A stretch of 64,000 nucleotides of DNA from Lachnospiraceae bacterium (GTDB taxonomy: Bacteria > Bacillota > Clostridia > Lachnospirales > Lachnospiraceae): positions 1 through 64,000 of the forward strand of contig SVDZ01000003.1 of assembly GCA_015057625.1 (NCBI GenBank). The letters run 5' to 3'. The translations under genes were made by a program, and so were the position numbers. The notes beneath the pieces are model-generated. The model was not told where the DNA came from, did no database searches, and saw nothing but the letters and a program-made list of their open reading frames with translations. Below are positions 52,289 to 58,012 of the stretch, in pieces. Numbering within the stretch: position 1 is the stretch's first letter; each line of letters starts with the position of its first letter.

Positions 52289-52834
52289 TCAGATGAACAA
52301 ACTACCAAAATATGTCACTGCAACACGAATTATTTTTTCTTCAAACTCATCAAAATTCTTGTTTTTATCCTCACTAATAAGGCCTACTGTTCCCACTACA
52401 TCTCCCTGTGAAATAATTGGGTATATTAACTGTTTTTTTCCGGAAACACTCTCGCCTTCATAAACCGAACATCTCAGCCTTGTTTCTTTACAAGTGTTGA
52501 TTTCTTTTCTTTGCTCCATTACACTCTCAAGATGCTGACTCAGATTCCTGTTTTCATATTCTTTTTTCAGTTTTCCCTCTGATGCAATAATCTGATCTCT
52601 GTCAGAGATAAATACTGTCATCTTAGTAATATCTGCCATAGCCTTGGCGTAGGCCTTGGCAAAATTAGTCATTTCCCCAAGGGGTGAATACTTTTTCAGC
52701 ACAATTTCGCCCTCCCTGGCAGTAAATATTTCCATGGGATCACCTTCTTTTATCCTGAAATTTTTTCTAATCTCTTTGGGTATAACTATTCTTCCAAGCT
52801 TATCGACAGCCCTTATAACTCCCGTTGCCCTCAT
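52289..52834 (-). CDS. spoVT: Stage V sporulation protein T
   Basis: A 181-residue regulator. The N-terminal AbrB domain reads ATGVIRAVDKLGRIVIPKEI, and a GAF-like domain fills the rest (about 55-181). SpoVT modulates sigma-G genes in the forespore. Its length matches Bacillus SpoVT (178). Confidence 0.94.
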   Translation of the reverse strand: MRATGVIRAVDKLGRIVIPKEIRKNFRIKEGDPMEIFTAREGEIVLKKYSPLGEMTNFAKAYAKAMADITKMTVFISDRDQIIASEGKLKKEYENRNLSQHLESVMEQRKEINTCKETRLRCSVYEGESVSGKKQLIYPIISQGDVVGTVGLISEDKNKNFDEFEEKIIRVAVTYFGSLFI

Positions 52835-52893
52835 ATAATCTCTCCTTTTTATTTTTTATTATCCGTAATAAATAAGAGATTATACATATATTG

Positions 52894-53106
52894 TTATTCC
52901 GCGCAGGCAACAACAGTTTTTGTTTTGATATATCTTCCGTTTTTTACTCTTTCATCCTTTGGTTTTTTTGTTTCGGCAGGAATTGCCCAGACATTGCCAA
53001 ATTTTATGGCCCCTTTGATACGTCCCTGAAGACATAAAGTATTAATTCTTCTTTCGCTAATCCCCCAAAGTTCCGACATTTCTCTTAATGTTTTAAAATT
53101 ACTCAT
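52894..53106 (-). CDS. Small helix-turn-helix protein under a cyclic-di-GMP riboswitch
   Basis: A 70-residue protein. Residues 5-40 (TLREMSELWGISERRINTLC) look like an excisionase/MerR-type winged helix, followed by a WAIPAETKKP segment often seen in small HTH proteins of mobile or regulatory origin. The ATG at 53106 has GGGGAGG six bases before it; an upstream in-frame ATG at 53181 has no site. The riboswitch and terminator at 53306-53420 lie in its leader. Its targets are unknown. It could be a c-di-GMP-controlled regulator. Confidence 0.75.
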   Translation of the reverse strand: MSNFKTLREMSELWGISERRINTLCLQGRIKGAIKFGNVWAIPAETKKPKDERVKNGRYIKTKTVVACAE

Positions 53107-53305
53107 AGAAAACCTCCCCATTAAATAAAAAATTTTACTTAATAACTTTTTCATCTCATTCACATAGTTTAAGTTTTTCATCTCAACCAGTATGAGTTCG
53201 TTTTCATATCAACCTGTATATCACCCCATTATTCGGGTTAATTATTGATATTAATGCTATTGGAATCTTTTTTCATAGGGAAATTCAAAGAACTTTTCTA
53301 TGAAA
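53107..53305 (-). other. Long leader between riboswitch terminator and the HTH gene
   Basis: About 200 bp without a gene. It contains two repeated segments (TTTTCATCTCA twice on the plus strand, and CAACC(A/T)GTAT twice), and the strong ribosome site of the HTH gene. No other structure is clear. Confidence 0.5.
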
Positions 53306-53340
53306 TAAAAAAAACATTACAGCTAGTAGCTACAATGCTT
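53306..53340 (-). terminator. Riboswitch-controlled terminator
   Basis: A ten-base stem CATTGTAGCT/AGCTGTAATG around ACT, followed by eight T on the minus strand. The bases ATTGTA in its first arm can pair instead with TACAAT at the 3' edge of the aptamer, giving an antiterminator. Confidence 0.8.
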
Positions 53341-53345
53341 TTTTA

Positions 53346-53420
53346 TTGTATGCAACTGGCTGACATTTTAAAGTCCCTATAGCTTTGCGTCGCTGCCTTT
53401 CGACAGTTTTGCCTTTTTTC
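53346..53420 (-). promoter_or_regulatory. Cyclic-di-GMP-I (GEMM) riboswitch aptamer
   Basis: On the minus strand the aptamer shows GGCAAA, the CTGTC-GAAA-GGCAG tetraloop hairpin, GCGACGCAAAGC, the second hairpin GGGAC...GTC, then AGCC and GTTGC closing the outer helix with GCAA. These are the conserved elements of the type I class, including the GNRA loop. A terminator follows. Formation of the outer helix when ligand is bound would free the terminator arm, so an OFF switch is inferred. Confidence 0.87.
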
Positions 53421-53445
53421 GTTATCAAGTTTTATTATGGTGATA

Positions 53446-53474
53446 ATTTTACTCCCAAGTTCGAATATTGTCAA
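53446..53474 (-). promoter_or_regulatory. Promoter of the riboswitch-HTH transcript
   Basis: TTGACA (53469-53474) and TAAAAT (53446-53451) with a 17-bp spacer, starting the RNA about 20 bases before the aptamer. Confidence 0.8.
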
Positions 53475-56067: not shown

Positions 56068-56667
56068 TTATTTGCTACTGTCTACAAGATTTTGAGCTTC
56101 TTTATTGTTTTTGCAAACAACAAGAGAAACAAATCCATCAGAGTTTACTATTTTAGCAGAAGCTGCCTTATCATACTCCTCCGGAGCATAATCCCTGGTA
56201 GAATCTTTAATACTATCTAAAACAACTTGAAGTGAAGCAGCAACCCTATTTGCTGCTGAATTATCCTTACACTTAAATAATGCAATTACATCCGCTGAAG
56301 GAGATACACTTCCCTGATAGAATGCATACTCTGTAGCATCGCTTACATCAATACCATAATAATCCATCAAGTCCTCTCCGTCCAAAGAATACATATCTGA
56401 AAAATAACCTGTTCCAATAAGCTTATTGTATATTTCCTTTACACCCAGACTCACTTTCGCTTCTGTTGTCTCTTCTACTGTAGTAGTTTCTTCCACAGTT
56501 GTTGTCTCTTCTGCTGTAGTAGTTTCCTCAACTGTAGTAGTTTCTTCCACAGTTGTTGTTTCTTCTGCTGTAGTCTTTTCATCTGATTGTTTGCTCTGGC
56601 ATCCTGAAAGCATAGAAACAGAAAGAATTCCCGTCAAAACAATCATAGCTAATCTATCTTTTCTCAT
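56068..56667 (-). CDS. DUF4358 lipoprotein
   Basis: A 199-residue lipoprotein. The lipobox is SMLSGC (Cys near residue 23). A linker of six ETT(T)(V/A)E repeats spans about 31-68. The DUF4358 domain follows (about 70-199). The gene is commonly found beside MBOAT/DHHW genes in Clostridia, but its function is not known. The ATG at 56667 has AGGAG nine bases before it. Confidence 0.82.
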   Translation of the reverse strand: MRKDRLAMIVLTGILSVSMLSGCQSKQSDEKTTAEETTTVEETTTVEETTTAEETTTVEETTTVEETTEAKVSLGVKEIYNKLIGTGYFSDMYSLDGEDLMDYYGIDVSDATEYAFYQGSVSPSADVIALFKCKDNSAANRVAASLQVVLDSIKDSTRDYAPEEYDKAASAKIVNSDGFVSLVVCKNNKEAQNLVDSSK

Positions 56668-56680
56668 TTGCTCTTTCTCC

Positions 56681-58012
56681 TCATTTCTTTTTATTACTTG
56701 CGTAATTTCTAAGAACCTTATCCCATATCGCATAGGTAGGTATATTCTGATGAATAAAATCATCAGAACAATACTGTTTTTTTAAGTACCCATCACTTGT
56801 TGATATGTAAGTTGCAATATCTACATATTCACAATCACTTTTCTCACAGTACTTTATCATATATTTGTTTAATTTTTTGAGATTTTTTGCCAAAGTACTG
56901 CTTCCTTCATGGCTTTTCACAGGGTACGTAGTACTTAAAATATAAATTTTGGTCTCAGGGCATTCAGCCTTAATCCTATCAATCAACTTAACGTAATTAA
57001 CATAAGCCTGCTTTGGATTTTTAGTATTGTACACATCATTTATACCAAAGAAAAGGAATACTTTTTTAGCTTCCATAATCTTTGCAACATTCTCCGGTGC
57101 GAGATGTTTTCCTCTGTACAATGGATGGAATTTAGAGTTTGGTTTTAACGCCTCAATCAATGAATAACTTATCACTCCATCAACTTTAGCGCCATCCAAA
57201 TACCCTCTGCCCTTTGATTTCGTATATATACCAAGGCCTGAAAGCACTGAATCTCCAAAGAAAACCGAATCTTTGAAAAAGCCTGATGTACTCTTAAAAT
57301 CACCATTTACAATACTGCTTATTTTCTTGGTTTTGAATTTTGTACATTTAGACCATGCACTGTAATATTTCTTTTTATTATTTTCCTTATATGTTCTGAT
57401 TCTGACATAGTACTTCTTATTTGATAATAAATCGTAAATATTCTTGTTATTTATATCTGCCTTCGAAATCTTTACAGCCTTTGCATCTTTAAATATCTTA
57501 TTATCACTGTACTGGATATAATATCCTGAAATGTCTTTACCTTTTTTCCATTTTACAACAGCTGAAGATGCACCTAGCGCATTTGCTCTCTTTAATTCTA
57601 CATTGGTCACAACATTTTCAATTACGTTACTGTACTGCCCCATTACAGTTTTTCCGTCCGTCTCTTTGTAACCTCTGATTTTAATCTTATATACTCTTCC
57701 CGGTTTTAAATTTGAAACCGAAAACTCTGTAAAATTACCTGCAGTTACTTTTTTATATGTTTTAGAGTCCTTTGCCTTGACCCATACTTCGAATCCATCA
57801 TTCTGTTCAGCGTTATTCCAAACTATATAAGAAGCTTTTTCAGCTTTTCCTTTTGAAATAGCAGGTGTGTTTACCTCAGGTGTCACAATCAATGTCGACT
57901 CACCTTCAGCTGTGCTCTCACCATCAGCTTTAACTGATAAATGGTAATTTGCCGCCCCACTGAAAACAACAGTTGTCACTGCCAAAAGACATAATTTCTT
58001 TTTAATGTTCAT
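56681..58012 (-). CDS. Secreted SGNH hydrolase with fibronectin type III-like domains
   Basis: A 443-residue paralogue of the protein at 24498-25907. It has a signal peptide (about 1-29), two fibronectin-like modules (about 55-140 and 145-230) and an SGNH hydrolase domain (about 245-443) with FFGDSVLSG, GINDVYN and a terminal DDFIHQ. It is first in an operon with DUF4358, MBOAT and DHHW genes, so it is probably the transferase or esterase acting on the acylated glycan. Unlike the 24.5-kb copy it lacks a clear lipobox and the ETT linker. Confidence 0.86.
   Translation of the reverse strand: MNIKKKLCLLAVTTVVFSGAANYHLSVKADGESTAEGESTLIVTPEVNTPAISKGKAEKASYIVWNNAEQNDGFEVWVKAKDSKTYKKVTAGNFTEFSVSNLKPGRVYKIKIRGYKETDGKTVMGQYSNVIENVVTNVELKRANALGASSAVVKWKKGKDISGYYIQYSDNKIFKDAKAVKISKADINNKNIYDLLSNKKYYVRIRTYKENNKKKYYSAWSKCTKFKTKKISSIVNGDFKSTSGFFKDSVFFGDSVLSGLGIYTKSKGRGYLDGAKVDGVISYSLIEALKPNSKFHPLYRGKHLAPENVAKIMEAKKVFLFFGINDVYNTKNPKQAYVNYVKLIDRIKAECPETKIYILSTTYPVKSHEGSSTLAKNLKKLNKYMIKYCEKSDCEYVDIATYISTSDGYLKKQYCSDDFIHQNIPTYAIWDKVLRNYASNKKK

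Follow-up and report, generated by a model that had tools for sequence, protein, structure and literature searches.

Riboswitches for c-di-GMP are commonly interpreted as controlling genes for adhesion, motility or polysaccharides directly. In the window analysed here (64,000 nucleotides from a Lachnospiraceae bacterium, positions 1 to 64,000 of contig SVDZ01000003.1), the gene behind such an element encodes a 70-aa helix-turn-helix (HTH) protein, which raises the question of what the switch controls and in which direction. Taken as a whole, we consider it probable that a c-di-GMP-I OFF switch acts on a small, probably self-repressing winged-helix protein, which most likely acts in trans. The promoter, GEMM-I aptamer, terminator (17 bp) and HTH gene that a first-pass annotation had proposed were all found, in this order, on the minus strand. 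The features of the locus are as follows; G001 and G002 are two species of the same genus.

53474..53446, minus strand: promoter TTGACA-N17-TAAAAT, with 11/12 consensus positions, kept in G001 and G002.
53452..53468, minus strand: putative operator ATATTCGAACTTGGGAG in the -35/-10 spacer, with C6 and G15 of the HTH-family dyad (from spacer statistics and dyad covariation).
53423..53348, minus strand: c-di-GMP-I (GEMM-I) aptamer (Rfam RF01051; hairpin covariation across linked loci).
53350..53345, minus strand: UACAAU, predicted 5' strand of the antiterminator, overlapping the aptamer 3' edge (fold of the truncated transcript).
53344..53308, minus strand: intrinsic terminator stem-loop of 17 pairs (sequence, pattern scan, conservation and fold).
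53336..53331, minus strand: AUUGUA, predicted 3' strand of the antiterminator, inside the terminator (fold of the truncated transcript).
53314..53307, minus strand: U-run of the terminator (sequence).
53305..53271, minus strand: one copy of a 35-nt palindrome that is interspersed in the genome, immediately following the terminator and outside the switch (sequence reading).
53113..53119, minus strand: Shine-Dalgarno sequence GGGGAGG of the HTH gene, just before the ATG (sequence), kept in G001 and G002.
53106..52894, minus strand: 70-aa excisionase/MerR-like winged-helix protein, the putative riboswitch target (sub-cut-off HTH_17 match, PHROG, AlphaFold model and dN).
52834..52884, minus strand: hairpin UAUAAUCUCU...AGAGAUUAUA before spoVT (counterpart formed by other base pairs in G001 and G002).
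52885..52857, minus strand: putative sporulation promoter GTATA-17-GATAATA, overlapping the 5' arm of that hairpin (by inference).
52289..52834, minus strand: spoVT, the gene after the HTH gene (Pfam SpoVT_C, 1.9e-34).

The aptamer was checked with the Rfam c-di-GMP-I covariance model, as the first-pass annotation had advised. It matched RF01051 with 60.5 bits (gathering score 35; E-value 2.4e-9) over the full model (1-87), and is the sole c-di-GMP-I match in the whole genome. The ligand-contact positions GGC and TTGC, which we take to contain G20 and C92 in Vc2 numbering, are conserved. These residues fit a c-di-GMP-type aptamer rather than a cGAMP-type one, and reading the element as a cGAMP variant was rejected on the GGC at the contact position. 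Across the linked loci, 97% of cells in the aptamer hairpin are paired, and the number of double-change cells is 24, compared with 8.7 after shuffling and 1-5 in slid controls. Next to its binding site, the window aptamer shows no strong P1 stem. From its sequence, it is predicted to bind c-di-GMP. Two linked aptamers carry unusual letters near the ligand site, namely GTTGTA in place of GTTGCA at L094 (L094:3851-3926) and AGCAAA in place of GGCAAA in the L104 leader; these are possible ligand variants or signs of decay.

The pattern scan by itself performed at chance level for terminators (1 found, 1.1 expected), and the terminator is credible because of its position and its conservation in the two same-genus species. 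TACAAT at the aptamer 3' edge and ATTGTA in the first terminator arm are exact complements, and the corresponding RNA strands paired when the transcript was folded up to the terminator loop. The pairing that had been claimed for them is thus reproduced in the predicted fold. The gain from this pairing in the window was 5.9 kcal/mol, against 2.9 ± 1.8 kcal/mol for shuffled arms (p = 0.065). Summed over 12 linked loci (L104 left out, its terminator being misassigned; L065 kept, its terminator being doubtful), the gain was 68.6 against 50.1 ± 6.7 for shuffled arms (p = 0.005). The aptamer and the terminator do not overlap at the window locus, and a ligand-stabilized aptamer would therefore favour termination. 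An ON switch, or a non-switching aptamer before a constitutive terminator, would be compatible with the window-only gain, which is not significant, and GEMM-I switches are known in both polarities. However, termination is possible in the bound state because the aptamer does not reach into the terminator; in the window, the aptamer 3' edge takes part in the competing helix; and the combined gain over the 12 loci is significant. We regard these alternatives as unlikely. The OFF switch by transcription termination is favoured as the best reading and is the most likely polarity. Of the ligand-controlled OFF switch in the first-pass annotation, the competing pairing is seen in the predicted fold and the polarity is kept as the preferred reading. 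Most type I riboswitches of C. difficile are OFF switches acting by termination (PMC7699646).

In RNA started from TTGACA-17-TAAAAT, the aptamer would be made first. Without ligand, UACAAU would pair with AUUGUA, which would block the terminator and allow transcription of the HTH gene. With c-di-GMP bound, the aptamer would keep its 3' edge, the terminator would form, and synthesis of the HTH protein would stop.

Ten further copies of the 35-nt imperfect palindrome behind the terminator were read in the genome, mostly right behind a terminator-like hairpin and a T-run. Their 5' flanks are unique and the 3' flank is common to most of them (ATGCTCCGCAAGGATGC), and the copy at 53305..53271 is absent from the corresponding site in G001 and G002. 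These features suggest an interspersed element that is inserted downstream of terminators. Elsewhere in the window (56068..56763, minus strand), a DUF4358 protein carries a tandem TTVEETTTAEE repeat.

The promoter of the HTH gene points to a second layer of control. Nearly all members of the HTH family have a strong promoter with 17-nt spacing; for each gene the best-scoring promoter nearby was taken, a choice that favours no spacer sequence. Among the 62 dereplicated HTH-family promoters, spacer position 6 is C in 58 and position 15 is G in 52. The motif [TG]C[CG] at spacer positions 5-7 is present in 50 of the 62, compared with 18 of 350 promoter-like control sites from the same loci (Fisher 2e-37), and symmetric spacer positions are complementary in excess of shuffled spacers (147 against 121 ± 7.1; p = 0.001; 47 spacers), significance values that are inflated by relatedness among the HTH genes. 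The motif occurs in none of 14 c-di-GMP-I promoters unlinked to the HTH gene, and is thus associated with the protein rather than with the aptamer. The window spacer has C6, G7 and G15; in G002 the G of position 7 is missing, and other genera have stronger operators than this genus. The spacer dyad is evidence for autoregulation of the HTH gene, in which the protein, probably as a dimer, would bind the dyad between the -35 and -10 elements of its own promoter and probably repress it by occupancy. The regulator would then be subject to two brakes, one set at the promoter by its own concentration and the other in the leader by c-di-GMP. A genome search at up to three mismatches found no second operator-like site and matched only the window's own, so that its targets in trans are putative; most likely the protein acts in trans on such targets.

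The HTH protein matched Pfam HTH_17 with an E-value of 2.3e-4 and 21.8 bits, under the cut-off of 27, and its best PHROG is an excisionase. The AlphaFold model (pLDDT 70) contains two helices and a wing. Its top fold matches are Xis, BmrR, SoxR and BldC, with Z about 5.5 and E-values above 0.1, and the PDB contained no sequence relative at E ≤ 1. The protein is accordingly not treated as an HTH_17 member, and the name excisionase/MerR-like refers to its predicted fold only, which is similar to those of MerR-family DNA-binding domains, BldC and Xis. MerR proteins bind promoter spacers, between -35 and -10. The spacer carrying the HTH-family dyad is 17 bp, whereas MerR spacers are 19-20 bp, and the 70-aa chain contains no effector domain. 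The PHROG match, the Xis proteins among the top fold matches and an apparent relaxase gene downstream at L182 (judged by eye) would also suit an excisionase, that is, a recombination directionality factor of a mobile element under c-di-GMP control. We consider this very unlikely: no integrase adjoins the HTH gene in the window, synteny with spoVT is conserved in the genus, and dozens of loci have the promoter-spacer dyad, which suggests that the protein binds promoters. A phage-carried module was rejected, since relatives in the viral scan reached only 39-45%, phage records were at most 53% identical, and plasmid relatives reached at most 57%.

The regulator at this locus has been maintained in the genus. 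G001 (C45) and G002 (C3) share the order DHHW gene, promoter, aptamer, terminator, HTH gene and spoVT. The aptamer and terminator align to those of the same-genus species with 78-79% identity, while the interval of 200-300 nt between terminator and HTH gene has no match between the species; the window has an unusually long spacing here, about 200 nt of non-conserved sequence. For the HTH gene, dN is 0.089 with saturated dS between the window and either G001 or G002, and the values between G001 and G002 are 0.006 (dN) and 0.48 (dS). By these estimates, the HTH gene is under strong purifying selection. Could the module instead be a relic, in which the cargo operon was lost in the genus and the switch and HTH gene persist without a regulatory role? 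The pair does head multi-gene operons in other genera, G002 contains a decayed copy with an in-frame stop in the HTH gene (L065), and the aptamers at L083 and L087 have decayed. Nevertheless, dN/dS is far below 1 in the three species, and the aptamer core and the terminator are intact in all of them, which makes a relic improbable.

As for the neighbouring genes, those for O-acylation (MBOAT and DHHW) come to an end before the riboswitch promoter, on its upstream side, and a link to O-acylation was rejected on this ground. On the other side, the HTH gene and spoVT are co-directional in 3/3 species, 59 nt apart in the window, with no clear terminator between them, an arrangement in which spoVT and the sporulation cluster could be the true target through read-through past an incidental HTH gene. 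The 10-bp hairpin between the two genes argues otherwise, as it is predicted to mask the ribosome site of spoVT in read-through RNA only, and G001 and G002 have an equivalent spoVT-leader hairpin built from different (compensatory) pairs. The sporulation-type motif GTATA-17-GATAATA overlaps the 5' arm of the hairpin, so RNA from this putative promoter would lack the arm. The masking hairpin and the separate putative promoter thus probably shield spoVT from the switch. In addition, the purifying selection on the HTH gene and its position behind the aptamer in other genera without spoVT speak against an incidental HTH gene. We regard control of the sporulation cluster by read-through as quite unlikely, and spoVT is probably not a direct riboswitch target. 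The surface or lifestyle control suggested earlier from these neighbours was not supported, with the O-acylation genes ending before the promoter, spoVT seemingly insulated, and the operons of other genera being different.

The HTH protein as target is also found elsewhere in the family. At about 15 loci in other Lachnospiraceae, this small winged-helix protein is likewise preceded by a c-di-GMP-I aptamer, which is decayed in two cases. When named genomes were scanned with four HTH sequences, 17 loci were obtained; ten of them have an Rfam aptamer upstream of the HTH gene (L080, L081, L082, L084, L085, L086, L089, L090, L091 and L094; L080 and L081 are the loci of the two same-genus species). 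Aptamers were further recognized by sequence motif at L104, L137 and L140, and by two genome searches at L185 (G155). L083 and L087 retain decayed remnants, and L088 has none. An Rfam aptamer also precedes the decayed HTH copy L065; this second riboswitch-HTH copy of G002 (L065:8642-8941, minus strand) has stops in the HTH frame and lies before a GTPase-like gene. On a tree of 71 HTH rows, which rests on few columns, the aptamer label requires 5 changes compared with 14.7 for shuffled labels. The starred branches force at least 2 changes, and the association of aptamer and HTH gene therefore arose or was lost more than once. Among 200 genomes of the family, 80 contain c-di-GMP-I riboswitches, mostly unlinked to the HTH gene, and the module is a minority use. 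Searches of the open-access literature found neither a study of c-di-GMP-I riboswitches from Lachnospiraceae nor one of such riboswitches at the head of defence operons.

The genes behind the riboswitch-HTH pair in other genera vary. Dynamin-like GTPases and LeoA/LeoBC-like proteins are encoded at L086, L089 and L180, and also at L088, where the aptamer has been lost. The cargo of L082/L176 includes an MkoA-like helicase with PIN and AAA_2 proteins, HerA/DUF87 ATPases are found at L083, L180 and L182, and WYL regulators at L085/L086 and, by similarity, at L104 and L137. At L185 (G155 C54), the pair is followed by genes for a MotA/ExbB-EAL fusion, for Wzz and for polysaccharide synthesis. A riboswitch-less HTH relative (L187; G138 C15) heads an operon with a 744-aa Piwi-domain (Argonaute-like) protein. 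In a PADLOC search at 1e-6, 43 separate genes directly behind HTH relatives (three with the riboswitch: L104, L137 and L140) matched 216 families, with type I restriction and methylation at the top, and 43 window genes used as control matched 15. The two counts are a contrast and not a rate, because families rather than members were counted and PADLOC is rich in restriction-enzyme models. BrxA, MmeI and ResIII were identified with Pfam among the genes directly behind HTH relatives. The wider HTH family, mostly without riboswitch, thus appears often to head restriction-modification, BREX and Argonaute genes; at the window locus the next gene is spoVT, and heading of defence genes is seen in much of the wider family. 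Judged by their gene content, the riboswitch-linked operons resemble phage-defence or stress systems, which c-di-GMP may gate. The module would come from a controller family that often heads defence-like operons, and in this genus, before spoVT, it would most likely act in trans.

Regulators adjoining defence genes have been described. RptR is a small repressor of defence islands described in Gammaproteobacteria that binds TAGCTA repeats (PMC12255303), and the WYL regulators BrxR/CapW repress the promoter of the adjoining defence operon (PMC9122601). The HTH family would share with them repression of an operon promoter, as suggested by the operator statistics, but differs in its excisionase/MerR-like winged helix, its putative site in the promoter spacer and, in part, its riboswitch; the WYL proteins are also much larger than the HTH protein.

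The genome of the window has 12 GGDEF and 6 EAL domain matches. No PilZ domain was found in it by a search whose controls were positive, and a search for class II c-di-GMP riboswitches gave no match, its controls being silent as well. The window aptamer is the only recognized c-di-GMP receptor found in the genome. The second-tier control of a small DNA-binding protein by c-di-GMP that the first-pass annotation had put forward is plausible, with control by the ligand being its presumptive part, and has a precedent in Vibrio cholerae, where the c-di-GMP-I element Vc2 precedes tfoY and controls a regulatory protein (PMC7371385). Vc2 is an OFF switch on such a protein, as the window element would be. 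Vc2 acts on translation, TfoY is unrelated to the HTH protein, and no description of an autoregulatory dyad in the promoter spacer was found for Vc2 (PMC7371385). With the type I switches of C. difficile (PMC7699646) and RF01051, the window element shares the aptamer core, the binding residues, the downstream intrinsic terminator and the probable OFF logic. The known targets of those switches are structural, motility or antitoxin transcripts, whereas the window element would act on a small winged-helix regulator whose putative operator lies within the very promoter of the switch.

The riboswitch class is already known; what is new is its insertion into an HTH controller. The spacer dyad operator, the recurrence of the module and the link of the wider family to defence operons go beyond the earlier annotation. 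As a tentative broader picture, which we hold to be possible rather than probable, small winged-helix autorepressors would control phage-defence and dynamin-like operons in gut and rumen Lachnospiraceae, and one branch would have put a c-di-GMP riboswitch between operator and gene, whereby the state of the operon would be set directly by the messenger of biofilm formation and motility (high c-di-GMP, low HTH protein); in the genus of the window, the only recognized receptor found may then carry much of the c-di-GMP response. C6...G15 in the promoter spacer offers a testable operator for a large uncharacterized family of regulators, and the module may be the main readable output of the GGDEF and EAL domains in this genome. 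If ligand control is true, one small protein would couple a lifestyle messenger to operons of defence or stress.
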